Below are positions 35,852 to 59,493 of a stretch of 64,000 nt of DNA, piece after piece. Under the pieces are notes generated by a model. The model did no database searches. It was not told where the DNA came from and was given only the letters and a program-made list of their open reading frames with translations. Source of the DNA: Mytilus galloprovincialis (Eukaryota > Mollusca > Bivalvia > Mytilida > Mytilidae); NCBI RefSeq assembly GCF_965363235.1, contig NC_134838.1, positions 14,664,441-14,728,440 on the forward strand, read 5' to 3'. Position 1 is the first letter of the stretch. Every line of letters begins with the position of its first letter. The translations under genes were made by a program, and so were the position numbers.

Positions 35852-38330
35852 TCATCGAGGCTTTAAAGGCCTCGACTGACGGTGCTGATACGACCCAGGA
35901 GGAAGAGCGTTCCAATCCCGGATGGTTCTTGGGAAGAATGAGTGTTTCCGGTAATCACAGGATGCTGATGGTACTTGGAAGGATTTATCATGCATGTTTC
36001 GTGTCATTCTTTTCGGTGGTATTAGACGACCTTCCTTTGACATGGCCACTTTGTTGTTTTCTATTTTGTATAGCATTGTGAGTCTCGCTTCTCTAGGGAT
36101 GTCCATTTCAGATGTTGTAGCATCAAGTTAACGCTGGAGTGGTTATGATGCTTGTTAGATACATAGCGAGCTCCTCTTCTTTGTACCATCTCAAGTCTGT
36201 CAGTCTCTGTCTTAAGGTATGGATCCCATACTGGACTGGCATATTCTACAATTGGACGTACCATTGTTTTATAGGCATTCTCCTTCACTGTAGTTGATCC
36301 TATATTTAAATTTCTTTTTAGGAAACCAATTGTTCGATTTGCCTTATTGCATATGCTATTTACATGGTCATTCCATCTGAGTTCGGATGTAAATGTGCAG
36401 CCTAGATATTTTGCACTGCTGACTGACTCAAGAATTTGACCATGTAGACTGTATGAGGTTGCAATTGTCTTGTTTTTCCTGCTGATGGTGAGAACATTGC
36501 ATTTGTCAGGGTGGAATGACATTTTCCATTTTGATTCCCATATTCCAAGTTTGTCCAGATCTAGTTGTAAATGATGTGAATCTTTGTTCGATGATATTGT
36601 AAGGTAAGCTATTGTGTCGTCTGCAAATAGTCGGACTGTAGATTTAGATCTAATTCCATCTGGCATGTCGTTAATGTAGAACAGGAATAGTGACGGCCCC
36701 AGTTCTGAGCCTTGTGGTACTCCTGACTCTACATCAATATGAGATGAACTTTCTCCATCAACAACTACTGCTTGTGTTCGATTAGACAGGAAGCTAGCGA
36801 TCCACCTATTTACATTTCCTCGGATACCATAGTGTTCCAGTTTATGCATTAGGAGACTGTGACCGACCTTATCAAAGGCTTTCGAAAAGTCCATGATGAG
36901 AACATCTGTTTGCTTTCCTATGCTCATGTTGTTGGTGATATCATCCACAAATTCAATTAACTGGGTTTCGCATGATCTTTTGCTACGAAATCCATGTTGT
37001 AATGGATATAGAATGTTGTGGAGATCTGCATGATTCATAATATGGCTAGTTATTATGTGTTCCATGAGTTTACAGCAGATGCACGTCAGAGATATTGGTC
37101 GATAATTCTCTGCCTTGTATCTCTCTCCTTTCTTGAAGACTAGGCTTACGTTGGCGTTCTTCCAGTCGGATGGTAATTCCCCAGTATTAAGTGATGTTGT
37201 AAAGATGATAGTTAGAATTGGGGCTATCTCGGTTGCAAGTTCTTTAAGTATTCTAGGTTTTAGGTTGTCTGGTCCTGAAGCTTTATTTGGATTCATTTTT
37301 TTAAGAAGTTTTTGCACTCCATTTTCTGTAATGATAAGATCTTCAGCAGAAGGGTATTGACCTGGCATGTTACAACGAGATTTGAATTCTTCTGGACTAT
37401 ATGTCTCTTTGGAAGAGAATGCAGATTGAAACTGCTTATTCAGGATTGTTGCTTGGTCCACAGGATGCGAGTGAAGTACTCAATCACTACGAAGTGGTGC
37501 CACTCCGCTGCTATCAGTCTTCATATGTTTGATATAAGTCCAGAAACGTTTCATATTGCTGTGTGGTTGTGTTTCTTCTTTAGGTGTTACTATATTTTCG
37601 ATGTACTTCCAATATGCACGACGTAGTTCTTTCTGTACTTTTTGCCTGGCTTCTTTGAATTTTGATGTAATCTTAGGATCCGCTGACTTTTTCTTTCTTT
37701 TGTATAGTCTGTCACGGCGGCGTATTAATTTACGTACATTTGGTGTTAGCCAAGGTAAGCTATCTTTCTGTTTCGCTATCTTGTGCGGGATATGGTTTGT
37801 TACACTTTGGTTGAGCTTGGTTTTGAACAATAACCAGAGTTCCTCTGCTGAGCTTCCATTTGAAGCTAGATTTCTGATCTTTTCATGGGTTTGGATCATT
37901 TCCTCTTTGATGGTTTCCCAGTTTGCCTTTCTGTATAAGGGGATGTTCCGAGGTTTTTGTTTCCTAGATAAGGGCTTGGTGTCTATTTCGCTGAAGACAA
38001 TGTCGTGGTCTGAAACCCCAGGTATCAGTTTGGTGCGTGTGAAGCGTGTTGGATTGTTTGTAATCACTAGGTCGAGCGTGTTGGGGCCTCTTGTTGGTTC
38101 TTCCACTAGTTGAACAAGTCCATTGTCGTCAAGAATGTCGCCAAACTTGTAGTGGTTTTCTGACATGTTGATTCTGGTTTCAGGGTTCTTGTTTTTCAGT
38201 TCCAGCCTGGGAGATTGAAGTCGCCACCAACAATTATGAAGCATTCTTTGTAGCATTAACTTTTTCAAGACTTCGCCCAAGTTCTTCGAGGCTTTCTTCA
38301 TTCTCTTCATACTCGTAGAGCGGCTTAAGC
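35852..38330 (-). mobile_element. 5'-truncated jockey/CR1-like LINE (endonuclease end + reverse transcriptase)
   Basis: Reading the minus strand, the copy starts inside the APE endonuclease (near [15 protein letters not shown], then [13 protein letters not shown] in another frame, then LDLVITNNP and [13 protein letters not shown]), passes a linker and a full RT: NKASGPDNLKPRILKE, NYRPISLTCICCKLMEHI, QHGFRSKRSCETQL, DFSKAFDKVGHSLL, GVPQGSELGPSLFLFYIND, and the catalytic LFADDT. The thumb includes SAKYLGCTFTSELRWNDHV, and the C-terminus IRDWNALP. Breaks seen: two frame changes in the endonuclease near 38190-38245, an in-frame TGA at 37480-37482 (a CGA-to-TGA change would explain it) and a frameshift near 36095. 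No poly(A) tail. It is a dead copy of moderate age. Confidence 0.9.
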
Positions 38331-39569
38331 TTTAGAGAAATTGTTACAGTACATGATAATATTGTATTGGTAAACTTATTTGCCTCGATTTAAAACTGTC
38401 TGATCAATTTCGAAGTCGTGCTGTGAAAAAGACTGAAATAAGAATTAGTTTCTTCTAAATTTGTTGAATGCAGGATACGTTTCGATATACTAGTACATTG
38501 AAGTGGGCTCCTTAGTAATGAATTAACGTCAAATATTAATGCATTATGTATAAAATGATGGACAACATTTCGTTCTCTTTACATGCATGATATACTATTT
38601 TCACTTTAACCAATTAATTTCCGCTACATGTACGTAAGATAAAAGAGCTCCTGAATAACAAAAAATCGATTTTATTGAGATATGCAATGTTACTGAAATT
38701 TTATTACGACATAAAGTGCAACATTCTATCATTCCATTTTATTAGTCTCGTTGATGCACAAGTTTATTATATATGCCATCCTTTGGGTTTTGGTACTCAT
38801 AAACACCGAATACAATCAATATTTTGAAGAATGCACGTACACTATACATTTAATCATATATATAACAAAGTATATGGTAATGGTATATATCTATTCTGTA
38901 TGGTTTACAATATCTGATGCTTAATGGAATGTATTACTTAAACAGAATAATTGATGAAATAGAATTAAAGTGTCAAAGGGGAAGATAATTAATCGAGTTT
39001 ATATAATTCTACGGCATTAAAGAAGTTATTTTACCCATATGATCAAAGAGAATCAGACACTTTGCGCCAAGTTTGACGGAACCAACACATTGCAAACGAC
39101 CTTTTGAGTGATATTCTTGTGTAAAAAATAATGGTTAAAGCAGGTGTCTGACTCGTTATCTCAAATACCACTATAGCGAAAAGGACTTGAAACATTTCCA
39201 GTTTCCCGTAGTTTTTTTTTAATTCTTCCCCGTTCAAAATAACGGCAATAGCATGTGCTTGGACATCCGGTTTTAAAACTAGATTTGTATATGACTTTTA
39301 ACAGCTCAATGAAAATAAACAAGGTGAAAACTTACTTATGTTGTGCTAAAAACTAAACAATACTAATGAACAGATAGTTGATTATGTCACCACGGATTAT
39401 ATTGCATGTCTTGGCAGTCCAATGCTTGACAATAACAAAAGTTACTTTCGTCAGAATCGGTGCCAAAAAGTGTGTAAGCAGAATTAAAGATGATCTTGTT
39501 TACAGCCACTTAACAATGTTTATATTTATCGAATTTACTCGTCCAGCAAGTGTTTGGTATTTTTAGCAC

Positions 39570-41720: not shown

Positions 41721-43861
41721 AGACTATTAACTTTATCATTGTTCGTCCAGTTGTCGATTAGAATGTTTGCAACTTACAAGGCTTATGAAAACGGAGTCAA
41801 TTTAAAAGGAAAGTGCATCTCTAAGAAGGATCCTTCACGGTGTTGGCTTCAACTAGTGTTTTTTAACCGACTTTTTTAAAGGTTCAATCACTATTTAAAT
41901 ATCACGTATGAAGTAAATAGTTTCAAATTTCAATGCGGTAATTCTAAGCGATTTTAACAAAGAATTATTGCATTCAGCAATATTCTTATAAATTAATGAA
42001 ACTATCATTAGTTCGTAAGGAAAAGTGTAAACAACTGATCCTACACTTGATAAAAGTATATAATTTCAATAAAAAGCTATTTATTGTCACATAAAATAAG
42101 ACATGAAAAATTGACGACCAAAAATGATGCAGGTGACAACATTTTGAAGTAGTTACATTTATTCATATGCTAATTCGTCATCCCAAAATGACATGTAATT
42201 TAGATAAACTATTTTTCTTTGTTACGCTCACGAGTACACATGTTATTGTCATGTCAGAAATTAGTTTTAAAACGTTAACTTGGGATGTTAGATATCTATA
42301 ATACTGTCTCTTTTTATGCAGGTAAGTCAGATCATTGTATAACAAAATAAGTTAAGTACTCAACACAAAATATAGCATGCAACTTTAAGGGGGTCTAGTG
42401 CGACTATGTAGATTTTACAATTACAAAACTTAATAAATATACGTTGCATCATTGAATTGTTGTTTCAAAAGGCCTGATTTAATTTGTTACTATTACTCTA
42501 AACACGATACGATGGCAGCTCCATGTCGGAAATTACCTTGAAACATATTTTAGGGATCCTTAGTTGACAAATTGTTACGTAAAGCTTTACCCTTGGTTTA
42601 TACCCTACATGCTTTGTTTCAGTGGCTGTCAAAATCTCCGTCCTTTATTCCAACCTACTAAGCAGAAATCATCATATTTGATACCATTGTTTAGTTTGTT
42701 GTTTTGATTTATCATGAAATAGTTGTCACCGGACGTTAGGCAAACGACAATGTGAACACCAATTAACATAGCTTGAATATTGAAGGATGGGTTAAATTCT
42801 GAAGTTTTGTCCCATATGAGATTTTACAGCGGCTGTCATAATGTCCACCCTTCATCACAACCTGCTTTGTATATAAATCCACGTATTAGTTGTACCGTTA
42901 TATAGTTTCGCGTTTCGAATATTCATGAAATAGTTGCCACCGGACGTAAGCAAACGAGCTTGAATATTAAAAGATGGGCCAAATGCTCTATTCAATTTCA
43001 CATGTGATTCAAGAGTGTTATGATAGAAAGTATTAGTAATAAAATCTAGCGAATTATAATGATTCATGCTGTTTCACTATATAATACATCATAGGTAATG
43101 AACTTTATATCTGTAGATATTATTTCGGCTTTATTAGTATACATCGACAAGCCTAAGGGTCGGATATTTAAAATGATAAACTCATTTATTTTGCCTGCAG
43201 TGAAAGTAAAGACAACTTATTAACACTGAAAAGTAGATAATTTAATAAATTACAAAGAATTAATATTTTTATGTTAAGTTGATAAATTACATTTTGTGAA
43301 AAAGGGATGGTTTTAAGGATTTTTGTTGGTAAATAAAACTGATAGTACAGGTACGTCTTATTAATTCAGGATTTAACACTGCATTTTATACGAAAACACC
43401 CTAACCGAAGCTAATGATTTATTAAATAAAAATGTGTTTTATTTTTTGGTGACATGATGCAAAAATAATGCAATGTGGTTATACGCTATATTTTTACGAC
43501 ATAAAAGTGACATTTCACGCATTTTATTCACATGACACTGATTTACCTTGTGAAATATTTTGTACATAAAACATTATCTAGCTTGAGTATCTGATCTTAT
43601 TAAATAGGGAAAAATTATACCCTTTTAACATATTCTTTAGCGTTAATGTTTTGTAGACTGTTGTTCGTCTTTTCGTCGTTTTTCATTTTTTTATTGCAAT
43701 TATTTTGTCTGTCTCTTTAACAAATCGTTAGTTTTGATTTTCACATTTGTTTTTCAATTTTCCCTCTGACAGTTGTTACAGTTTTACATTGTCAGTCTTA
43801 ATTTCACATAAAAGTCAAAATGAGGCCCTGATTTCTGATATTTTCGTTTTCCAGTTAAACC

Positions 43862-46800
43862 ATGACATCTCCACTCACTCTTCTTGTGGTCTGCCTTTTG
43901 ATGCCATCCTTTGGAGATTCTCTACAAGACATTAAACCAGAAATTACTGTAGAAGGATCTCCTAACATCGTTGCCATTGTAGATTTTCACTTGGATACGG
44001 ACAGCGATGGTAACTGTATAGATCTATCAAGAACCGGTATCGATTCCCTGATGGCTTTGAAATGGGCTAACGAAATCCTAGACAAAAATACACCAAGAAC
44101 AACCGGTAAGATTTCAACATGGACTACATATAATGACAATGAATTTGGTTGGAATTAAGTTAGTTCTTTATACTATATGATGGATTTATTACATGACTTG
44201 GCGATTATAGAAACTTAAACGAGTTTGACGATGTCAAGATGGGTTCGCTACTAAAAAAAGTAACGATACATGAAAGTTAATCATTTGTCTACTATTGTGA
44301 TTTGTGAACTTGTATGATATCGATACATTTTCTAGTTAAACAATTACAAAGTTTGTATAGTCAATGTTGCACTCGGTCCATTCAAAGACATATATACGTG
44401 TCTCTGGTCCATTGAACCTATAAGACACTTATTTGACAAATCGAATAGGTCTCAATACACAGGCACTTGTTTCTGAATTTTCAAATAATTCACAATTAAA
44501 ATAAACGTTTATGTTCAAATATGTATTAACCAATTCTAATGTTATGTCATGTATATCTTATATAGAAACTGTAATGTTAACTATTTGAAAGCCTAAATTT
44601 TAGGATTTAACAAAGTTTTTCAAATATTTAATTTGAAGGTTTTTTGTTTAAACCTGTTCTATGTTATCATATTTCCAGGACTTCTTCTTTACGACTCATG
44701 TGGATCTTTAACACGGTCCCTGAAGATTGTCGGACAATTAATTAATACTCAAGGTTGTAGTAATTGTACAGAAATAGTCGGTAGGTAAAATGATACTTAA
44801 ACATCCATTGATATTTTGTTTGTATGTATACAAAATGTTGAAATTAATTAGGCATGTTTTCCACCAAACAAAAATTATCAGTGGAAGGATATTAAGTGTT
44901 TTATTTCCTTACAAAGCGCATTATCTAGAAATGTCGAAGTATAATATACTGTCATTATTCAATCTAAAAATGTTACGTAATTTGGAAATCGTTCATGCAT
45001 TTTGAATTGAAATTTAAGTGGCGCATTTAAATATTATATTATTTTGTTTCGGGGCAGAGATAATAACCAACTTCCACTGAATTTGTTTCACTCATGGGAT
45101 CAAAACCCCAAAACTGTTGAAAGCCAGGGGAATTGAATGTCATTTTTTTATGCAATTTTATATAAATACGTATCTCCCAGCGGTATGAAAGGCTGTTTAA
45201 CTCAATTTTGATACACAAAAAAAAAACAGTTCTTATAATTTACACACACTTCAATATACTAGTATTTAAAAAGAGTAAATGACAAGTTCAACTTGCTGGT
45301 GTTTGTGTTGTCACGTAATGTCATTTTAGCGATATTTTGTCATTTAAGCGGGAGGTTTGGCTAGCCGTAAAAATAGGTTCAACCCACTAATTTATTTTCT
45401 GAAAATGTCCTCTACCAAATCAGGAATATGGAAGCTGTTATAAAAAAGTTTGTTTCTATGTATGTTGACGTTTGTTTTTGTTGCACTTCAGCATTCCCGT
45501 TGTTTCTTTGTTTTCCTCTGATAGTTAATGTGTTTCGCTCTGTTTTAGTTTGTAACCCAGATAAGTTTTCTCTCAATAAGCCGTCTTCGCGATAACTGAT
45601 ATCATAAACCGCAAGATCATCGAAGCACTCAATTAAGCATAGAATACATAAGCTGGGGTCTAACTTCTACACTGTATGAAACATTATATATATATTGGTA
45701 CGAAACGTACAACAGTATAGATTTCTAATTGTACACAAATATGAACAGAAGACAGTACAGAAAATAATTATTTGACGCTAGGTTTACATGCAATATGACC
45801 ATATTTCTACTGTATATACATTAGGGATTCCTCAGGGTAATATACAGAATAGTGACTGAAATCGATGCTGTCCAAGATTTACGTTCACCATCACGAATAA
45901 GTTGACCAATACGATATGTCAGTCTATAACTCAATCGAGACTCATTTTCTTGAACTCAGTTCCAAAGACACAAGCAAATTCGTGATATCCGAAAATTTCA
46001 TTAGTATGTTATATTTACTATAATTTCACATCGCTATTGTGACATTTAAACTGAGTGAGATTCATATGAACAATGATGCATGCATAGTTATCCTTACCCA
46101 TTCGACTCAGCCGGTACGTGTCGGTACTTTTGGAGCTCACGCGATTCCTCCAGTCCTTCCTCGCATAGTTTGAATATTTTTAAATATACGAGTTTTTAAA
46201 TTAGAAAAACTACTGTTTTCTCTTATCAATTTTCAATTTAGAAAAAATATTCTTGCTTAATGACGTCTTTAGTATATGATATATAATATTTCGACTTATC
46301 TGATAAGAAAAGAAGGTTAAATCCTAGACCCTCGTCTGATGCCCATATTTTCAGCACATTTATACATTTACAACCACTCTCTATGAGAGTCTGCAGATGA
46401 TGCTTTGGGTGATTATATTCCTGCTCATAAAACAATCATACATAATGGAATACGCATGACCTTTGAAAGAAACGAGACCGGGTGGATCGACAGAGTAAGC
46501 ATCTAATGCTATATAAAAAAGAAGATGTGGTATGATTGCCAATGAGACAACTGTCCACAAGAGACCAAAATGACACAGACTATGCATGCATCAACAGCCA
46601 TGCAAATCCATACTGGATCCAAATGTCACAAATGGGATTAGAAAATACAGATCAAAACGACTATTATGGTATCTAAAGATAAAGGACAGCGAATACATGT
46701 CGCCAGTGTGTTTAGACACAGACACATCGTTTTGGTCAATCTAGAAGTGATGATGACTGTACAACTTATGAAGTTTCGATTTCAGTCGTATCCTCATACC

Positions 46801-48627
46801 TCTGTTGGGGCAGTTTTTGTGTAAGGACCACACGCCTGTTAATGAAGTCCGTATAATGTGAATATGCATGAGCGTAACGTATAATTTAAAATGTAAAAGC
46901 CATACGATGGAGCGGATGGTCGGATATCGCTGATAAATTGGACATGTTCGTCGTAGATTCTTGAAGTCGTCCATCTGTGTCAATATTGAGGAAAAAGATG
47001 ACGACATGAATATTTTTGCCAAATTCAATCCCATCCAGAACCTATTTGATTCACTTTGCTGTTGCGTTTTTGGTTAGATTAATTCCAAAATGAACTTGAA
47101 AACAAAAGTTCCAAAATGGAATGCTCAGAATATCATTTGAAAGAAAAGTGTATATAAGAATTTACACTCGATACTTTTAAATGTAGACATTTTTCATTTA
47201 TGGCATTGACCAACGAAATTCAATCTTAGGTACATCATTGCTTTTAAATATCAATATGTAAATTAACAAATTATTTTTTATATTATGCAAACAGGTTTAA
47301 TAACATTTACAAAAGAGGGTATTCAGACAAAACTTTCAGAAATTATACGACCGTTTGGGATCGTTCATGTCGGAATATCACAGGGAAGTCACACCACCGT
47401 TAGTTCAGACCTGTCCTTAACGGTTGCAACCGGTTCTATCTGGAAATCTAAGGTATGTGATTCTTAAGCACAAAAACGTTATTGACAAGAATTTCTTTTT
47501 ATCTATTTTCAACATTCGTTTAAATATCTGTTCGAGATACTTAGTACAAAGTATGAAACATAGAACGGAAAACTCAGGTTTTTGAAAAACGAGATGTTAT
47601 AAGATATCATGTTCATATTTCAACGAAAATATCAATACCATTTAATAAAAACAAACAAAAACACTAAGAATCACAACTAAGATGTGAAATAGGTTTTACC
47701 AAAAGCAAACTGTTTTCTAAAGTCTGAGGATACTAGTAAGACTGAGATGGTTATATTGCAGCGCGAGCGATGTTCATAGTACTACATACTATTTAAATGT
47801 TTGAACTTTGATATAACATGTGTTCAAAAAATGACATTTTATTCACAGAACTTGATAAATATATTTTCTAGGCTGTGGTAAGGATATTGGAGGAAAATCA
47901 TTGGCAGCATATCGACGCCTTTGCTATCAACAGCCCTCTTGCTTCAACAGAACTTGAGTTATTACTGACAATTGCCTTTTCAAATGATATCTGTGTCCGC
48001 AGGTCACAATACACAGACAATAGTTCAACCTTAGTGAACTTGTCGTCTGATGTAGTTGTTATTTTTGTGTCAGGTCATGATAACATCGACGAATTACTTT
48101 CAAGGTTGACGTCAGACAGAAGTAAATCATTTCTCATCGTAGGTGATTCTAACATTGACCTTGTAACTTCCGAATTAGGTAATAATACTTACTTACTAAA
48201 AGAACAATCACCCGTTATTCAGAATATTCAACAGTACTTAGCAAATGAATTCAGTATTATCAATAACAGTAAGCCAATACTTGCAGAGTTTTTGAAATCT
48301 TTGCCTTATTGTGAATATGATATAGTATTCAACCATACAGTCTGTAATAAAAGCATGATTCAGTATTGGACCTCTAGATTAAACGATCGAACTTTTCATA
48401 ACGCCCTGACTGCCTACTACAACATCTTTAGACTTATATCACGGAAGGAAACATTCAGCTGTAGTGGGTATGATTTTACAAATTGTCTAAAAGCTGTCAG
48501 TTTCGTCACCCTTAGCGCCCATCAGACTCCAGCTGGAAATCCATTTCGGACACATGATTTGACTGATGGGAATTTCTTGGAACAGGTTCCAGTAATTGTA
48601 ACTCAAGGACCATCGCTGTCATCTGAG
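43862..48627 (+). other. GPCR flytrap domain 1 (exons 1-4, residues 1-420)
   Basis: This domain is split over four exons, unlike the other two. Visible landmarks: NIVAIVDFHLD (first strand), NCIDLSRTGIDSLMALKWA (first helix), LLLYDSCGS, GIVHVGISQGSHTTVSS where class C receptors have their ligand-contacting Ser/Thr loop, and VVRILEENHWQHIDAFAI (second lobe). It is shorter than domains 2 and 3, mainly in lobe 1, and ends in VPVIVTQGPSLSSE before the intron. The shortening may mean an altered or lost binding site; this is inference. Confidence 0.75.
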
Positions 48628-51600
48628 GTTTGTTTTACATACTTTTTTCTCGATAAAAAAAAACCCAATAAAGATAAGACTTGGATATTTTCCAGAGATT
48701 TTTTTTTTAGATAGATGTACTCTCTTTTTAAATAAGATACTAGTAGATCAACCAAAATGTGAATAGCAGTATAAACAACAAAGAAAAAAATGTATAAATA
48801 AATGATACATTGAAAAATCTTAATTGAAAGTAAGAACACACAACTATTGGCAACAATAAAACGACGAAAGACAACATCGTTTGTGCTTCACTGATCACCC
48901 GTCAAGGTAACCCGTAGAGGTTAATATCATATAATAGCGAATGATAATTACACATGTTCTTTAAATATGTAATGTATGCATGTTCAAGTTGTAAGTGTCA
49001 TTTGATCCATTCCTTATTATATATTTGTAGTATTTATATTGTGCATACACAAACATATTAAAGACAATAGGCTTATAAAGATTGTCCAGGTATCTTTGGT
49101 GACTTTTTACAACCGCTAGGTCGATGCCACTGCAGTCGGATATTTAATCCCCAATGGTATCACCAGCCTGCACTTGTATGCCAACATGAAATAGATAGTC
49201 ATATTCTATAAATTAACTGTTCTTTAAATGTTCAAATCTATCGAACCACTGTTTTTTTGTCGATAGACATATAAGGACTAAGACTTAGTCCTAAGTAATC
49301 GACCTGAAAATGTGTTCAGTTCGAACAAACCCTAAAACTTACTGTAAAGTTAGAACATCAATATACATGTCTTAAGATGATTCCAGAATAATAAAAACCA
49401 ATTTGCTTTCATAATTGTATCGAAAACATATTTATTTTGCTACACTGGGCCTTTTTAATCTTTGAAAGTATATGTCTAAAATTGTAATCAGAATATAATC
49501 CTGCCAACGGCAATATATATGCAGTATGTTTTGGACGTTTATCGTATTTTATTGAAATTACATGCAAGGCGTACATGTTAAACATATTTTACTGAATCGT
49601 TTAACGTTTCGAGTTAAATGTTAGATACAGGTTAAACATGTAATAAAAAGGTTTTAATATTGTTTGCCACTGAAAGAACAAATAGAAAAAATTATTCTAC
49701 TCACTATCTTAGGACATTTTTAGATTACAGTTTTAGACGAAACCTTAGAAGTTTTAGGACATGTTTATGGATACATTTGAAAACGAGGCCCCTCATATCT
49801 GTGTCAAGTTTTAAGGGCAAGACAAAAGTTTTGTCTACGTGATACTCGAGCTGATAATTGTTTAAAGTTTATGTCGCGTAGCTATACTTGTATCTGAGGT
49901 TAATATAGTCAAATACAGGTATCTGAAGTTACATATAACAAGCTGTTGACATCGTTTTTGATTGAATTACCGAATTTGTACTCACCCTTTTGGAGCAACT
50001 GATATCAACTTCTGTTTTAGTTAGGGTTAGTTTTGTTCCGTCTTTAAATTTGTATGCTGTGTTTTGAAGACCGTTGATTGTTTTATTTTTCGTCGCCTTT
50101 CGTGATATGACGAGTTTTATCTGTCTCTCATCGCCGCCTCTATTTTTAAAACGCAAATGGTGACACATAGAAAGATAACATAATACTTTTATACAGATTA
50201 TGCCTTTATTTCAGGCAAGAAATTAGTTTTAAACTTTGATCTTTTCGTACTTTATTTAGCTTTTTTTAAAAACGTTTTTGGATTCGAACGTCACTCATGA
50301 GTCTTTTGTAGACGAAACGCGCGTCTGGCGTATATACAAAATTTAGTTCTGGTATCTATGATGAGTTTATTTATTGAATTGCAATAAACACAGCTTAAAC
50401 ATCGTGAATCGCTTGACGTTTAGAACAGATGCACCAAAGGCTAGTTACCGTACATAGAAACCTGGTTACGAATGTCGTTTATCTTCTTTGGTCTTAACCT
50501 AGTATATAATTAATAATTATGTGATTTTTCGGTCATTTGAATATTTGATACATTTACGATATCTAGTATTGTCAGTGTAGGATTGAGTACTAATTCTACT
50601 GTTCATATGTTTCAGGTTTTCAGAATTGTCAATAATTCTATCATATATACAACAGGAAACTTCAGTACCATAAATAATATACAGTCTTCTTTATGTGATG
50701 AATCCTGTTACAAATGTGGCGAATGTTACAGACCAGAGGAGGAAATTAAACCATCCGTTATCGTAAAAAATGGTGACATTATTTTTACAGCTGGGTTTCC
50801 TGTGTATAAAGACTCCAAATATGGATCTCATTGTATGGAACTATCGAGAGAAGGCATTTTAATGGCACAGTCGTTCATATATGCAATTGATACTGTAAAA
50901 GATAAATATCCTTCGAAAAATATGCTTCCAAAAGTTTCTATTGGCGCTTTGGTATATGATACATGTGGAGGAAAAACTCTTGACTCGGCACACATTGTTA
51001 GTAATTCAAACTGCCCTTTAACCTTTTTCAGCGGAAAAAATAACAATACTATTTCCGGAAGCTTGTTGTCTGACATTAGATATTCAACCTCTATCCATTT
51101 ACCAAGATCAGGGCCAATGACAAGTGAATTAGCATCGTTTACAATTTCCAACTTTGGATTATCTCTGTCGCAGGAAACATATGACGTATACTTAAAAGAT
51201 CTATCGTCATTATTGAAATCTCTTAATTGGACGTATGTATCAATTGCATATTCTGACTATTTTAGTAAAATGAACTCTGTGAATAAACATATATCTGATA
51301 TGCGAAGTGATGGAATATGTATATCTGATGAAATCTTTTTTCAAAACACAATAAACACAATCGATACAGTTGCATCAAAGGTCGTCAATTCTTCTCTTAA
51401 AAGCGGTGCAATTATCCTTTTAACAACGCACGATGATACCATTAAATTGATGGAACACCTTCGGGCGAAGAATTTTTCTTTTGAAAATGTCAATTTCATT
51501 TTCTTTGCATGGAATGCTTTATCTAATTTACCGAAAGGTTCAGTTGTAATTCGGCCACGGAGCTTATCTCACCCATCCCTCAAACAGGAGTTGAAAACAC

Positions 51601-54600
51601 TTTCGGTTATTGAAAATGGTTATTACAGAGGACCGGTAACAGAAAGCGTAAATCATTGGTGGGTAAAATATCACGAGCGTCGCCATAAATGTCACATGTC
51701 AATAAAAGACAATACTATACATCCGAACTCTTGCTCCAATCAACCGACCTTTTCCGAAGATGATATCGATATGACAGTTCCAGGTCTAATTGTTGAATAT
51801 GTCGACATTATGGTCGCAATGGTAGATGAACTATATAAAACAAAATGTCCATCTCTGTCCGGACCATGTGAAGAATTTATGTCATCTGATGATTTGGCAG
51901 ATTATATTAAAGCATCAGTTCCCGGATTCACATTTACAGACGGTTCTAATAAAATTAGCTTTACAGCAGATGGTTCTTTGAAGATGCCATTAGAAGTATC
52001 CAACATTCAACTTTCTTCTGAAATCATGGTAAAATTCTCTTTCAGACCTTTATTGTAGTATTGAAGTTTATAAATGTAACTTTCATTTATAATTTGTGTT
52101 TCGCTTCGATTTTTGCTCGATTTATGCTCGATCTTGATACATTTTTTTCTCAATTTCGTGTTTCAATTTCAACAAACTCAAGATTTGAGCGAAATCTTAT
52201 TAAAATCTGTTCCACGCAGAAACTCTAATTTTCCTTAATTTTAAATGGTTTTATGTTTTCTTTTTTTTACATAATGAAAACCCTTCGTTGATTACATAGT
52301 GGTATACTAATTATAATTCCATATCATAATTCTAAAACAATTTATATTTTTTCGTATGCTACCCGCAAACAGTTAATATTAATCGTCAGAAGTTAAAACT
52401 ATTTTGCTGAATAGTCTTTAAATTGAAAAAACACCTGTCTTTTTTATAGAATAGAAATACATTAGATATTTTTTTCTTTCATAGATTGCAACAATATCAG
52501 AAGAACATGCAGTGACCATGTCAACAAACCAGATATATGCTTATGATTCAAATAACTCCCCTGTAGTAATTCAGCATCAGTGCTCTGGGTGGTGCCCATC
52601 TTGTCATCAGTGTCAAACAAATACTGCACAGAATATTGACTTCTATTACAAATCAGGTGATATCGATCTGTTTGGATTGTTTCCAATACACTCTATGGGT
52701 GCTAAGATAGGAATATGTGACCTACTTGCACTCAAGGACGGAACTGAATATCTTACCGAAGCTTTCCTCTATGCTATAAATACTGTGAAGTCGAGATATC
52801 CATACCTTTTACAAGGGATTTCTATTGGTTCTTTAATTGTCGATACGTGTTCCAGTGAAGACACAGTACAGCAAAGCATAGCAAATTTTGAAAGTTGCTT
52901 TGCCTCGTTTCCATCATCGAGCGGGAAAATGATTTCACCCATGTCTGTTCCAAGTTATCTTTTATATTCAAATATCAGTACCGCAGACGACTTAAGTGCA
53001 TCAATTCAGCGACATGGTAAATTTGTCATGTCACACTCTACTGATTTTAAGAATAAAGAAACAATCATGGGAACGTTACAGTATTCATACGCGAGGTCTG
53101 AAGTCACTACAATTGTTAACTTTTTATCAGAAATGAAATGGACTTACGTTTCTGTTGTAGGTTCTTCGGAACTTCTCTATACGTGGAAGATGCACCAGTT
53201 TGAAGAACTAGCGGCAAAAAATAACATTTGTATAAATACAGTTCATTCTGTATCAGATTCTAGTACAGCTAAAAGTGCTGTTGATGCTATTAGTTCTGGT
53301 CCTATCAATATGAATGTTGTAATACTTTTCCTCTCCGTAGAAGATATAAAGATGTTTTTCGGTTCTAAAATACTCAGTAAGGTACATATCATTGGAGACA
53401 CAAACATTGCATGGAATGGCTTTAACACGAATATCCAGATTCCTCTTGGAACAATAGTAGTAGATCGATCGAACAAGATAAATTCAGATCTGAAAACTTA
53501 TTTAGATACCCTCAATTCTCAAACTATAAGTCGATATGAAAATCCTTGGCTGAAAAAATTTCAGACCGGACGTGAAAATTGCAAACTAAGCCAATCTCAG
53601 TCTTGTAGCTTACCCAATGATATAATGTTGCAGTCATCCAAGGTTGTATTGGAAACGGACATAATCCTTCATGGTTTACATAACAGATTAACAAAACTAT
53701 GTGGACAACAGACAACCATGTGTAAACTGCTAGAAACGGAAGGATTGTCTCTGCATATGGAAGATTTTAGAAATATCAGCTTCTCTTATCAACAGGATCA
53801 GATAGTTCTCTACACAACTGATGCCTACATCGGTGCTTATCAGATACAAAATTTCCAAGAAAATAAAATGGTCAAGGTAAATATATTATTTCATAATTGT
53901 CAGAGGGCAACAGATCTCTAAGGGTTGATTCATACATAATGATTAATATTTAAAAAAGCATCCAATATCATGTATCGTAGAGTCCTGTCGTCTATATTTT
54001 GCTATTGCATCATTAAATTCAGAATACGGCACATAATTTGGAGTCATGACCGAACAAAAACCAACAAACGCTAACACAAGATTACAATAGTGTAGCAATT
54101 GTCCACTGTTGATATACTGTAATATATAACATCACTTACATTTCCAAAGACACAACCACATCTCCTTATTTGTTATAAAAAGAATATTCTTTATATATTT
54201 TTTTCGGTACATACTTTGACTTTGCAAGCTTATGATTAGTAGTTGAGGCATAGGACAACTGATTATTTTATTATTTTTTCGGGATAAAAAATAATATCTC
54301 ATATTTAAAACATTATATACTTGCATGGTAGTCACTTGGATAACACTGTGAATATAATTGTAACAATTTTGTTTATGGGTACGCGTTCATAATTATAAGC
54401 CTGATATTTTCTTTATACACGTATAGTACGTCAGTGGTATAGAAGCAAGTAAATATATGCTTCAGGTATATCTAAATTTAATATATTTCCTTTGAAGGTT
54501 GGAGATTGGACAAATAATACTTTATCTCTATCCAAAGAAATTATCCGTGCATATAGTAATGGCGGTTTGGTACAGAAAGACTTACCATTGTCTCGATGTA

Positions 54601-55625
54601 TCGGCACGTGTTTATGCACGAACATTAACAACACAGCAGAAGGAACAGAAATGCCGGAGCCTTACCAAGACCCAGATATGATCTTTTATTCGTCGTCTGC
54701 AAAATTCAACAGTAAATTATGGACAATAATTGTACTTGCAATTGCTGGTGGTGGAGTCGGGGCGTCCATGTTATTCATCGTATACGTAATTTACAAAACA
54801 TGTATCGGTTGTCTGAATAAACGGTACATAGGACTTGGAATTCTTCTTTTGTTATCAATAACGGCACTATATTTGTCTGTTCTTCCGTTTTTGTTTACAC
54901 CAAGTGAAATGGGGTGCACTGCAAGATATCTTCTACCAGGAATAAGCTATGCATTAGTGTATGCAACGTGTTTGGCCAAACTAATGTCGTTGAGATCGTA
55001 TAAACTAATTGGATTAGGAGGTGAAATTTCAAATTTAAATCAGTTTTTGACAGTTACATTTGTAAGTGGTGTGCAAATAGCAATATCGGTGCAATATGTT
55101 GCCCTTAAAGGCCCGTTTATGGAAACAAGAATAATGTCGGATGAAACAATGTATGCTTGCAAATTTGACAAAGATGTGTTTGTAATGTATTTAATTTATG
55201 ACATGTTATTAATTGTGATGTGTTCGTTATATGCTTTGACTGTTAGAAAAGAGAAGAAAAATATGGGCGAGGCTATTTTTATTCTGATTAGCAGCTGGAT
55301 AAACATTGTTTTATGGACAGCTTGGGTAGCTGTAACATTTATAATATCACATGACTATGTGGAACTAACAATTTGTACTGGAATTCTTGCGTGCGCAACA
55401 GTGGTCGTTTTGACAGTATTTGTACCGAAACTACACAAAATTTCAAAGTTAAAATATGATGTGAAGAAAAATGGAGTTCAAAATGGTGGCTATAAAATCG
55501 ACACAGAATTTATGTTTGAAAGACCTCATACTTTACCAGGTGGATTTAGAAGTTCTTACAATATGTCGCCACAAAAAACAAATCCGAAAAGTATATCTAC
55601 GTTTGACTCGAGTATGAGTTATTGA
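43862..55625 (+). CDS. class C GPCR with three tandem Venus-flytrap domains, seven exons
   Basis: Exons 43862-44105, 44679-44780, 47295-47452, 47872-48627, 50616-52028, 52485-53876 and 54498-55625 join in frame to 1730 residues (intron phases 1,1,0,0,0,0; all GT-AG). Residues 1-20 form a signal peptide. Three flytrap domains follow, each with the class C strand motif: LLYDSCGS (C89), LVYDTCGG (C537), LIVDTCSS (C1013). Each ends in a hairpin and a Cys motif: CxxxCxxCxxC at 447-457, the same spacing at 924-934, CIGTCLC at 1389-1395. Seven membrane segments span about 1429-1664, with a Cys before TM3 and YACKFD in the second outer loop, LWTAW in TM6 and FVPKLH after TM7; the tail has about 65 residues. 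It should be a plasma-membrane receptor; ligand unknown. Class C receptors usually have one flytrap. Two adjacent genes fused by my splicing is the alternative, but no signal peptide precedes domains 2 or 3. Confidence 0.85.
46516..46640 (+). repeat. mussel repeat family A, head
   Basis: AGAAGATGTGGTATGATTGCC, AATGAGACAACTGTCCACAAG, GACCAAAATGACACAGAC; the best-preserved head of family A here, in intron 2 of the GPCR gene. Confidence 0.6.
50288..50331 (+). ncRNA. hammerhead ribozyme relic (type I, short stem III), likely inactive
   Basis: Stem I strand ACGTCA, core CTCATGA (consensus CTGATGA), stem II GTC-TTTTGTA-GAC, GAAA, a stem III of about three base pairs (A-CG-CG-CG-T), cleavage-site GTC and stem I partner TGGCGT. 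All three helices can form, with a six-pair stem I, but the core G5 is C, and G5 is known to be essential in hammerheads. Such ribozymes occur in bivalve retrozymes and Penelope-like elements. It lies in intron 4 of the GPCR gene, on the sense strand. Confidence 0.6.
50616..52028 (+). other. GPCR flytrap domain 2 (exon 5, residues 421-891)
   Basis: One phase-0 exon of 1413 bp encodes the hairpin and Cys motif that close domain 1 (VFRIVNNSIIYTTGNFS, CDESCYKCGEC) and a full-length flytrap: CMELSREGILMAQSFIYAI, VSIGALVYDTCGG, LLKSLNWTYVSIAYSDYFS, NVNFIFFAWNAL, NHWWVKYHERRHKC, PGLIVEYVDIMVAMVDELY and PSLSGPCEEFM. It ends in LEVSNIQLSSEIM at the donor. The order matches mGluR-type ectodomains, including the Cys-rich C-terminal lobe region. 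Confidence 0.85.
52485..53876 (+). other. GPCR flytrap domain 3 (exon 6, residues 892-1355)
   Basis: One phase-0 exon of 1392 bp starts with the domain-2 hairpin and Cys motif (CSGWCPSCHQC, spacing identical to that in exon 5) and carries a full flytrap: GICDLLALKDGTEYLTEAF, LYAINTVKSRYPYLLQ, SIGSLIVDTCSS, FLSEMKWTYVSVVGSS, KVHIIGDTNIAWNGF, ENPWLKKFQTGRENCKL and ETDIILHGLHNRLTKLC. It ends YQIQNFQENKMVK at the donor; the hairpin continues in exon 7 as VGDWTNNTLSLS, the usual mGluR-like strand leading to the membrane. Confidence 0.85.
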
Positions 55626-55703
55626 AATAATCATAACGTCAAGAAAATATGATATCGTAGTGTATTTCAAATTTTATTCAAGAATTCATATCTTAAATGA
55701 AAA

Positions 55704-55709
55704 ATTAAA
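55704..55709 (+). promoter_or_regulatory. possible poly(A) signal of the GPCR gene (ATTAAA)
   Basis: ATTAAA about 80 bp after the TGA stop. No AATAAA was noticed nearer, and a longer 3' UTR cannot be excluded. Confidence 0.3.
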
Positions 55710-57483
55710 CAATACTGAAAGAGATTTGAGAAACTTTAGTCAACTCCTATGACAAAAGAACATAACTCTTAACTATTGGTGTGTTATTCAATCTCATACT
55801 GTGTTAAAGGAATGTTATCTTATAGATGGCAAATCGTAGTATTGAACAAGCATTATCATTTTCTCAACCTATTATTTTGTTTCAACACAACCTTTTGCGT
55901 ATACATATTCCATTTTATATGTGCATGACTTGAATGATGAATACCAAAATATATGATATATTGTTTTCATATACAAAATGAATATAAGGTATATAAATCC
56001 TAAATGTCATTCATTATTTATTGTGTTCAACTCCTCATATGGGTCATTTTATTTTGTTGAACCGTTAACTGGGTTATTGCTATAGTGAAACACATTTTAT
56101 ATAATGATCAGAACTATTGAAAATGCTTGTTTCTTTGATTTTTTTGGGTCTCTTTTGACTAAAAGATCGGAAATACATATTCTCTACCATAATAATAACA
56201 CATTGTCAACCATATGCCTACATTTTATGGCTAGACACATTTCAGTTTTCTTTAATATGGTTGATAAGTATTATTGTATCTCACTTGTTATTAATTATGT
56301 ATGGTTCTGCTTCTTCACTTCACATCATCTCCAATGATATTTTCGTTCAATGAATTTTGGACGAATTTTTATAAGTTGAATATTTTTATAGGGATCGCTG
56401 AGTTTCAATGCGATGAAATGTACCAAATAAGATTTGATACACAACTTGGTACACTACGATCTCGATTGATGAGCATGGGGAATCGTAATGTAACGTAATG
56501 AGAGACAAAGAAAAAAGTAAAATTACAAAAATACTGAACTTCGAGGAAAATCTAATCGGAAAGTCCATAATCACATGGCAAAATCAAATAGCAAAACACA
56601 TCAAAAACGAATAGACAAGAACTGTCATATTCGTGACTTGGTACAGGCATTTTCAAATGAAGAAAATGGTGGATTAAACCTGGTTTTAAAGCGCTAAACC
56701 TCTCACTTTGATGACAGTCTCATCAAATTCCGTTATATTTACAATGATGCGTGAACTAAACAGACACAATAAATACAATAGTCAAAATATTGGTACAGCA
56801 GTCATCATCGTGTAACAATTTTAAAAGGAACAATTTAACAGAACACAAAACATCTTTCAAAAACATGCATTGATTCGCGTGTCTGACGTCAGAAAATTTT
56901 AAACGTCACATATATTTGTCGTTCAATGTATATACAAACAATTTTAAAATTTCACATGGGCAATGTTAGCATACAGGGTTAAAAAATCAAAAGTATGTAA
57001 GAATTAATTTCAGAAATAGACCGAGATTTAAAATAGTTCAAAAGTTATATAGAATTTATAAGAATCCACAAATAGTTCATTCCACTACGCGACTGAATAA
57101 TTTTGACGTTTGTGGTTCAACGTATTTTGTAATTCACAATAGAAATATATCATAATGACATATAATAGAACAATATCATACTGACGGTGTCTTTTAAAAT
57201 ACAGAAGTCTCAGTGAACTAAAACGCAAAAATTATACACTTTTTATGTTTTAGGGGCACACATTGATATATGGTTGTTGGGTTGTACGAATGCGTCCATT
57301 TTGCAGAATGTTCACTGCATTATTCAGGATTTTCAATGTACAATAATATTTGCATCTACTATCTAAATTTAGTAGATATCATATATAGCAAACTTTTGAT
57401 TATAGCTATAAACTTTAAGTTTTAGAATGGCTATCTTACAATAAAAAATATAATTATAAGTTATACAGATGTAAAGCAAAGTA
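55710..57483. other. intergenic between GPCR and protease genes
   Basis: Convergent intergenic stretch without coding content. About 56560-57000 is a copy of mussel repeat family C (GTGACTTGGTACAGGCATTTTC, GAAAATGGTGGATTAAACC, ATTACAATGATGCG-like phrases). Confidence 0.45.
56560..57000 (+). repeat. mussel repeat family C
   Basis: CTTGGTACAGGCATTTTC, then GGTGGATTAAACCTGG, TTTTAAAGCGC, TCAAATTCCGTTATATTTAC and GTACAGCAGTCATC. I recognise this run as a common mussel interspersed repeat; a short relic is at 9290-9370. Non-coding here. Confidence 0.5.
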
Positions 57484-59324
57484 CTAAGGATCTCTATCAG
57501 ATCTCGTGTAATTTTGTATCCAATTTTCAAAAGCTGCAACATGCGTATAGTAACCATAGTGATTACTCCTATCGCATCCAACTCCCCATGAAACAATTCC
57601 GACCAACACCCAAGGATGATTTTCGGACAGTCTCATAGTGAGAGATCCACCACTATCACCAAAGCAAGCGTCTCCCATATTTCTTCTAGAGTAACCAGCA
57701 CAAAACATGCTATCAGTAAAATTGCCTTGTCCAATATTGACAGAAGCACAATCATCACGATGTACATACGGTACGTAAACCTCCCTCAGATATTCTGGTG
57801 CTGCTTTCCGGAATTCACTATATTGACCGCACCCTACCACTCTTCCTATTTTATGACCGAGTTTATGGGTTAAGTAATTATTGTTAATGATAGAAGATGG
57901 TTGTAGACAGACTGGTTGAATATCCTCCGTAAACGTGACCGATCTGTCCAATTCAACCAAGGCTACGTCATTATCGTAAACAGCGCGTGCGCCAAACTTT
58001 GGATGAACAACGTAAGACTTAATACCATATTTAACACCACTTTCGCCATTGCAACTATTTGTTCCCAAGAAGATGTCGACCTTTTCTTTTGCAAACATTT
58101 CTTTAAATTCAATGTGAAAATGACGAATACAATGGGCAGCTGTTATGAGCCATGAACTCGATATGAGATTAGCACCACAGAACGTCTTATCCTGAAATGA
58201 AAATAAAAAATAGTTCAGGTAAGTTTTTTACTTTGAATAGAACATAATCATTACACACTGTCCTGTCGAAGGAAAATATATTGCGCCTGGCATCCCGTTT
58301 TCAAATTTCAGCCTCTCCCAATAATGTTAATGTCTTCAACCAATGTGAATAGTGCAATGTTTAATTCCTGCTTTAATGTGTTAACGAACTAGTTTTTGAC
58401 ATAATTATCTCTTCCTTACCACACACAACATAACAATTTAAACTTTAAAGTGTAGAAGAAGTAAAAGAACAAATTGTTTACCATCATACCTGACTACGCA
58501 TGCGTAAAACAGCATGCCATGGTGCTGAAGCCTTGTCTACAGAGATCCCGAGTGTTATTCTCCCAGCCATTCTGACACGCGGATTGTGAACCAAAACATC
58601 TCTAGCACAGTCTGAAAATGAAGAAGAAACCATATTGTAAGGAATTATACTTACACTCAATGAAAAAAGTACTATGATTTATTTAAAGATCTTTAAAGTA
58701 ACAATTTGGTTGGTTGGCTAGTTACAACTCTGAATATATTCTACTCACATGTTCGCCATATCACTGTGATATAATCAAATGTTCAAACTGACATATCTGC
58801 CCAATATATCAAGATGTGACAATTTTGGCATCAGCAAACATTATTTAAAAGAAAAAAATCGAAGCTGAAAACTATTTTGAATTTATTTACGTCCAAATTC
58901 TGGATCTTGACACAAAAGTTAGTCACGGACTGACGGGTGTAACAGACACCAGTTTTATAAGTATCTTTTAATTTTTTATGATATTTTTGAACATATATCA
59001 ATAGACACTACGTTTTGGCAAAGTATAAACAAGTTCTTTCATTTTTAATTTAGACTCACATACTACCTTAAACCATAAGAAAATTTTATTGTCACTTGAA
59101 ACAACTATAGCCCCGTCATTAACATATGGTTTATAGAAAAAGTTAACATGCATGAGGAACAGCTGAAAATACTTACAGGAATTAAATCCTGATGCTGGAA
59201 TCACTGATAATTGAGCAGATCGTTCGACATGACAACCGTCATTGCTCGTGACTTGACATGTATATTCTCCCGCATCAGTAGTTACTACATTGGAGACTGC
59301 TAAATATTGTCCTTCGCTCAACGT
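57484..59324 (-). CDS. Ig domain + trypsin-like serine protease, 3' three exons (partial gene)
   Basis: Exons 59324-59177, 58611-58490 and 58191-57484 (minus) join in frame (phases 1 and 0, GT-AG). The first encodes the C-terminal half of an Ig domain (VVTTDAGEYTCQVTSNDGC). The second carries a linker Cys and the activation site (NPRVRMAGR|ITLGISVDK). The third holds the catalytic domain: TAAHC (His), DNDVALVEL (Asp), GDACFGDSGGSL (Ser), VCLQP pairing with the linker Cys, and WIQN near the end. The Asp six residues before the Ser (D189) predicts cleavage after Arg/Lys. The region SWGVGCDRSNHYGYYTHV resembles thrombin. It is probably a secreted zymogen activated by another protease. Upstream exons (signal peptide, first half of the Ig) were not found and may lie beyond the window. 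The protease converges with the GPCR gene. Confidence 0.9.
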
Positions 59325-59493
59325 CTGAAACAGAGGTATTATATATATAATCTATTTCCCATAAAAATTAAATTCTCACTGAAATATAAAGGATTATTTT
59401 GGTTCATTTTATAAAAAAAAAACCAACACAACAATGAAAAATACACGATAGAGAAACATATGACATGATTTCCAGTATGTCTGCTTCAAATAA

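Follow-up and report, generated by a model that had tools for sequence, protein, structure and literature searches.

The 64,000-nucleotide stretch of Mytilus galloprovincialis DNA analyzed here (contig NC_134838.1; hereafter the window) carries on its + strand, at positions 43862-55625, a predicted gene for a class C G-protein-coupled receptor (GPCR) whose single polypeptide would place three Venus-flytrap domains ahead of one seven-helix domain. We favor, with a probability of roughly 0.68 for the full reading including its mechanism, the view that this is one gene, derived from a metabotropic glutamate receptor (mGluR), whose ectodomain grew to three flytraps when a phase 0-0 exon was duplicated. 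In textbooks, class C receptors exemplify a design in which each subunit uses a single flytrap to gate a seven-helix domain, and the relay of flytrap closure through the cysteine-rich domain is still under study. If the predicted transcript is real, it represents a new layout for a well-studied receptor class.

Independent splicing of the + strand yields seven exons and six introns, all of them GT..AG, with a spliced length of 5193 nt that encodes 1730 amino acids and a stop in a single open frame containing zero internal stops or frameshifts. This reproduces exactly the seven-exon, 1730-residue, one-frame model of the original prediction, which was made from the letters of the DNA. The exons are as follows, with splice sites written exon-side and intron-side of a slash.

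Exon 1: 43862-44105, + strand; signal peptide, then the first part of flytrap 1 (in lobe 1); ATG, hydrophobic N-terminus, donor CCG/GTAAGA; phase 0-1.
Exon 2: 44679-44780, + strand; YDSC strand of flytrap 1 (C89), aligning with the DTC of mGlu3; acceptor CAG/GACTTC, donor TCG/GTAGGT; phase 1-1.
Exon 3: 47295-47452, + strand; more of lobe 1 of flytrap 1; acceptor CAG/GTTTAA, donor AAG/GTATGT; phase 1-0.
Exon 4: 47872-48627, + strand; lobe 2 of flytrap 1 and the return to lobe 1; acceptor TAG/GCTGTG, donor GAG/GTTTGT; phase 0-0.
Exon 5: 50616-52028, + strand; cassette with the final strand of flytrap 1, cysteine linker 1 and almost all of flytrap 2; phase 0-0.
Exon 6: 52485-53876, + strand; cassette with the final strand of flytrap 2, cysteine linker 2 and almost all of flytrap 3; phase 0-0.
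Exon 7: 54498-55625, + strand; final strand of flytrap 3, then cysteine linker 3 and the seven-helix domain, followed by the cytoplasmic tail and stop; phase 0-end.

At 505 and 478 codons, respectively, exons 5 and 6 have frames longer than any + strand frame that arose when a 20 kb stretch was base-shuffled 200 times, the longest of which had 172 codons. If introns 4, 5 and 6 were read through, a stop would be reached after 28, 9 and 14 codons, respectively; these introns measure 1988, 456 and 621 bp, and introns 5 and 6 are thus each shorter than the 717 bp that encode the seven-helix domain here. The leader is hydrophobic (best 10-residue Kyte-Doolittle mean of 3.11), and by this hydropathy measure, as distinct from a dedicated signal-peptide predictor, the N-terminus looks like the signal peptide claimed for it. 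Because a CAG acceptor-like site, noted by eye, lies immediately 5' of the ATG, an exon of 5' untranslated sequence may lie upstream.

That three flytraps and a class C seven-helix domain share one frame, as originally proposed, is borne out by Pfam, by matches of exons 5-7 in the PDB, by a cysteine scaffold and by the exon phases. A Pfam search of the spliced protein gives two families, both named in the original prediction: ANF_receptor (PF01094), in three stretches (68.3 bits on the whole chain, stretches counted at a maximum E of 1), and 7tm_3 (PF00003), as one full domain. Scanned separately for ANF_receptor, residues 1-474 score 25.7 bits, with a match spanning residues 64-355, exon 5 scores 26.8 bits and exon 6 scores 34.1 bits, all passing the cut-off of 25.4. 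A 7tm_3 domain joined to a flytrap ectodomain, which most members of the class possess and in which each flytrap region here exceeds the cut-off alone (flytrap 1 by 0.3 bits), places the protein among the class C GPCRs. The predicted DSC/DTC cysteines at 89, 537 and 1013 are present in the spliced protein.

Comparison with the PDB using phmmer gave mGlu4, mGlu3 and mGlu7 for exon 5 (best E 4.6e-12), mGlu2 and mGlu3 for exon 6 (best E 3.8e-19 among the matches listed, the best 60 of 77), and mGlu2 as the best match for exon 7 (E 2.4e-14). The matches to exons 5-7 are all to mGluR, CaSR, T1R3 or GPRC5D (56 of 56 for exon 5, the best 60 of 77 for exon 6 and 60 of 60 for exon 7), and no GABA-B receptor appears among these. 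For exon 7, all 60 matches up to E 1 are to mGluR, CaSR or GPRC5D.

Further support for the flytrap assignments comes from their cysteines. The mGlu3 ligand-binding domain that served as reference (2e4u, chain 12-448) contains 8 cysteines at spacings of 42, 28, 113, 121, 12, 39 and 7. Flytraps 2 and 3 each contain exactly 8, at spacings of 44, 16, 102, 124, 14, 38 and 7 and of 44, 16, 111, 117, 8, 32 and 7, respectively. Flytrap 1 contains 9, one of the close pair C108/C111 being extra, and has spacings of 37, 22, 98, 106, 11, 39 and 8 when C108 is omitted, a choice made after the alignment had been inspected and applied to both the spacing and the chance count. Random placement of 8 cysteines gave an mGlu3-like spacing 3, 0 and 0 times in 200000 for flytraps 1, 2 and 3. 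Since the eight-cysteine scaffold is retained in order and spacing, each repeat appears to keep what flytrap folding needs. We take the first two scaffold cysteines to be the lobe-1 disulfide and the fourth to be C240, which is presumably bonded to the cysteine-rich domain. In two of three MAFFT settings the third aligns with mGlu3 C127 in all three flytraps, whereas under the remaining setting no flytrap has a Cys at this position; C127 is given as the inter-subunit disulfide cysteine in the available portions of two papers (PMC8102066, PMC10543438). From this pattern of cysteines, each repeat may retain both pairing with a partner subunit and a pull on the segment that follows it.

The exon structure suggests how such a chain could have arisen. 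The junctions between exons 4 and 5, 5 and 6, and 6 and 7 are all phase 0, lie 47, 53 and 51 residues past the last flytrap cysteine, and sit 27, 33 and 34 residues ahead of the first linker cysteine. Each flytrap therefore needs splicing for its completion, as its last strand is encoded by the next exon. With phase-0 junctions recurring at roughly equivalent positions of the repeat, exons 5 and 6 are homologous cassettes, which points to an old exon duplication behind them. BLAST aligns flytraps 2 and 3 over 336 columns at 23.5% identity (E about 1e-14) and gives flytrap 1 a weak match to each of them (E about 1e-3); across the BLAST-aligned parts the three are mutually 23-29% identical. No direct DNA repeat of at least 30 bases was found within 43000-56500, which argues against a recent duplication, and the low identity of the flytraps excludes both a recent duplication and a haplotype artefact; duplication of haplotype or assembly origin was rejected on the same ground. 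The duplicated unit would have been a phase 0-0 exon, comprising the end of one flytrap, a short cysteine linker and the next flytrap, in a gene descended from an mGluR-like ancestor.

The exon phases also carry a consequence that the original prediction had not drawn, namely that skipping of exons 5 and 6 is frame-neutral. As the joins of exons 4-7 are all phase 0, loss of exon 5, exon 6 or both stays in frame, giving products of 1259, 1266 and 795 residues, respectively. The 795-residue form has one flytrap, the usual number in class C.

Between the flytraps, and between flytrap 3 and the membrane, lie the three cysteine motifs of the original prediction, here termed linkers, followed by the seven-transmembrane (7TM) domain:

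Cysteine linker 1: 50694-50726, + strand; C-x3-C-x2-C-x2-C, C447-C457 (447/451/454/457).
Cysteine linker 2: 52581-52613, + strand; C-x3-C-x2-C-x2-C, C924-C934 (924/928/931/934).
Cysteine linker 3: 54597-54617, + strand; C-x3-C-x-C, C1389-C1395 (1389/1393/1395), ahead of the first helix.
7TM domain: 54714-55430, + strand; residues 1428-1666, covering PF00003 profile positions 5-251 of 251.

The cysteine clusters are found where they had been placed, with 4, 4 and 3 clustered cysteines, but they look cut down relative to full cysteine-rich domains, and Pfam gives no NCD3G match at any of the three. We infer that they are reduced cysteine-rich domains.

The seven-helix domain scores 107.3 bits for 7tm_3 on the whole chain and 111.3 bits on exon 7 alone, with a cut-off of 33.5. 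The seven membrane segments previously claimed are upheld by this match over the full profile, although hydropathy separates only 5 of the 7 (at a cut of 1.6 there are six peaks, two of them overlapping), plain hydropathy being too coarse for counting membrane segments. A low-confidence structure model of exon 7, with a predicted local distance difference test score (pLDDT) of 43.4, contains seven long helices. Aligned with mGlu2, the domain retains the Cys and Lys of transmembrane helix 3 (TM3), the Cys of the second loop, the Glu of the 'EA' motif in TM6, and PKLH in TM7. The TM3 Lys and TM6 Glu we take to be the class C/mGluR switch. Given that these TM3, TM6 and TM7 residues are kept, the domain is predicted to be signaling-competent.

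The ligand is harder to place. We compared the flytraps, under three MAFFT settings, with ten mGlu3 positions that we take to be the glutamate contacts (R64, R68, S149, S151, A172, T174, D194, Y222, D301 and K389). Flytrap 1 keeps 0 of the 10 in all three settings. Flytrap 2 keeps D194 in 3 of 3 settings and S149 in 2 of 3, and flytrap 3 keeps K389 in 3 of 3 and has an Asp at D194 in 1 of 3. The alignment is of low identity with uncertain loops, which makes the pocket result a soft one. As the alignment shows hardly any of the glutamate-pocket residues, glutamate is an unlikely ligand, and we would expect either a different ligand or flytraps that serve as modulators.

Together these features suggest a scheme for how the receptor might work. 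Class C receptors are obligate dimers. Here a dimer would contain six flytraps in three stacked pairs, which the conserved inter-subunit cysteines could tie together at as many as three levels. Flytrap 3, which is membrane-proximal and the most mGluR-like, would be coupled to the helices via its short linker and would drive G protein activation, while flytraps 1 and 2 would exert their effect by way of flytrap 3, whether as co-sensors, allosteric modulators or a spacer. Glutamate is probably not the ligand, and exon skipping could yield in-frame receptors with one or two flytraps.

Several observations weigh against this account. The gene model and the triple layout are predictions from the genomic DNA of one assembly. 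Flytrap 1 is very divergent, standing 0.3 bits over the Pfam cut-off, and by phmmer it has no PDB match below E 1; its list up to E 10 holds five PDB sequences, at E 1.2 to 2.2, none of them a flytrap protein by name. A profile comparison of flytrap 1 with flytraps 2 and 3 (hhalign) reaches 89% probability over 222 columns. With no PDB match below E 1, the identity of flytrap 1 rests on Pfam, its weak similarity to the other two flytraps, and the cysteine test, and it is the weakest part of the case. Position by position, two MAFFT settings put 7, 8 and 7 of the 8 scaffold cysteines of flytraps 1, 2 and 3 in an mGlu3 cysteine column; the third setting does so for 5, 7 and 6 of them. In the L-INS-i alignment, flytrap 2 is missing about 25 residues from the part of lobe 1 where some of the mGluR pocket lies. 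The structure models of exon 6 (two-row alignment, mean pLDDT 33.8) and exon 7 (single sequence, mean pLDDT 43.4) give no confirmation of the fold. Finally, the choice of flytrap 3 as the one driving the helices is itself inferred.

It is possible, if unlikely, that splicing of the cassettes leaves exon 5, exon 6 or both out of the main product, so that most receptors have two flytraps or one and the triple form is minor. The phase-0 joins from exon 4 to exon 7, at similar positions in the repeat, would keep every skip in frame, and the 795-residue product would come near the ordinary class C layout. The sequence analyzed shows no sign of such skipping, however, all splice sites are GT/AG, and the cysteine scaffold in all three flytraps suggests constraint on each of them. 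Less probable still is that the model has fused two genes, one for a secreted flytrap-1 protein that continues through the exon 4 donor to a stop at 48714 and one for a two-flytrap receptor with its own promoter in intron 4. Intron 4 spans 1988 bp and an AATAAA lies at 48797, though it is one of 22 AATAAA/ATTAAA on the + strand in 48601-57000. Against such a division, flytrap 1 has no last strand unless exon 5 is joined to it, and exon 5 starts mid-domain; that exons 5 and 6 both begin inside a domain argues against separate genes in general. Additionally, introns 4, 5 and 6 were scanned for a hydrophobic exon that begins with ATG and ends in a phase-0 donor; strict and loosened cut-offs alike gave 0 candidates, intron 4 included, with exon 1 recovered at phase 1 as the positive control, in a scan that a leader split over two exons would escape. 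Searched in full by tblastn with the 7TM domain, the window yields exon 7 and no second 7TM exon, the next matches being at E 3.8 or worse.

The remaining explanation, that pieces of neighboring class C receptors were misjoined in assembly or that the locus is a decaying, non-functional copy, draws on the single assembly and the divergence of flytrap 1. We regard it as very improbable, because the seven exons are intact in a frame with no internal stop, the eight-cysteine pattern is present in all three flytraps, the flytraps are too dissimilar for a false duplication, and matching intron phases at matching places are hardly a product of misjoining. The idea that one of the flytraps belongs to a receptor kinase or guanylate cyclase was rejected, as Pfam shows no such domain. 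Pattern stretches in two contig collections were not confirmed by tblastn (viral_contigs, 0 of 6 for exon 7 and 0 of 78 for the exon 5/6 alignment; genome_contigs, 0 of 14 for exon 7), and zero relatives in these collections is expected for an animal gene.

The window is low in G+C. Just downstream of the receptor gene, on the - strand, is an exon of a trypsin-like serine protease (57487-58227; PF00089, 157.6 bits), and beyond it an immunoglobulin-like exon below the cut-off (59001-59351, - strand). On the upstream side lie a frame of 712 codons similar to leucine-rich repeats (475-2610, - strand; PF13516, 58.5 bits), a 33-residue match to translocon-associated protein delta (31258-31578, + strand; PF05404, 39.6 bits), and the remains of a non-long-terminal-repeat retroelement (36064-38331, - strand; reverse transcriptase PF00078, 123.3 bits), whose adjoining frame has weak endonuclease similarity below the cut-off (15.6 bits). 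Within the gene, intron 2 contains an inverted repeat with 76 nt arms that are 72% complementary and 782 nt apart (45854-45929 and 46712-46787), and a second inverted pair has 37 nt arms (45130-45166 and 47808-47844); both are possibly small transposons. Parts of intron 4 (about 49120-49200 and 50280-50375) show a possible resemblance to an interspersed repeat common in Mytilus.

Returning to the favored reading of a single three-flytrap gene, we put at about even odds the wider proposal that it represents an undescribed class C family, in which three duplicated flytraps form a six-trap dimer gating one seven-helix pair and in-frame loss of exons 5 and 6 may adjust how many traps a chain carries, between one and three. 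A receptor with two extra serial flytraps and short linkers would offer a test of whether closure is relayed from trap to trap, and of whether full cysteine-rich domains are needed. Among the papers listed in the open literature on repeated flytraps and on class C receptors of molluscs and other animals, none, as far as the available text extends, shows a receptor of this form, in keeping with the statement in the original prediction that no described one was known to it; a relative could still be present in gene annotations without having been discussed in print.

The closest known systems are the group II and III receptors mGlu2, mGlu3, mGlu4 and mGlu7, with which the protein shares the eight-cysteine flytrap scaffold, the class C 7TM domain, the TM3 Lys, the TM6 Glu and the TM7 PK motif. 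These receptors differ in having one flytrap per chain, a full cysteine-rich domain and the glutamate residues that are nearly all absent here. Where an mGluR proper has one flytrap followed by NCD3G, this chain has three flytraps and no NCD3G match in Pfam, and it also departs from an mGluR proper in its glutamate pocket, as judged from a soft, low-identity alignment. mGluR class IV, a non-vertebrate sister group, resembles it in that Arg78 and Lys409 (mGluR1 numbering) are replaced, whereas the amino-acid backbone contacts are kept there and mostly not here, and flytrap 3 here retains the Lys; repeated flytraps are not mentioned in the available text on that class (PMC6307864). In the accessible part of a recent survey, metazoan class C ectodomains consist of ANF with NCD3G, ANF alone, or Cache with EGF (PMC12716839). 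By the same part of that survey, GABA-B receptors share a class C flytrap without NCD3G (PMC12716839), but they have a single flytrap, and the PDB matches listed for exons 5-7 are all to other class C receptors; NCD3G is absent here too, yet exon 7 matches mGluR, CaSR and GPRC5D and not a GABA-B type 7TM domain. Venus kinase receptors, as described in the sources available in part, are likewise invertebrate receptors with a flytrap ectodomain, but with one flytrap, a single membrane pass and a tyrosine kinase, whereas Pfam finds 7tm_3 and no kinase in this chain.

A parallel in layout is bacterial. According to the available text, sensor kinases of the BvgS type carry between one and five flytraps in tandem on a chain, BvgS itself is dimeric, and the tandem flytraps are proposed to combine signals (PMC4352136). 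These are bacterial two-component proteins without a 7TM domain, and their histidine kinase output is unmatched in Pfam here, so the likeness is a working analogy and not kinship, in which the tandem layout alone is alike. As with those kinases (PMC4352136, in the part available), a triple-flytrap receptor would allow the combination of several ligands to be tested on one chain, in this case an animal one.

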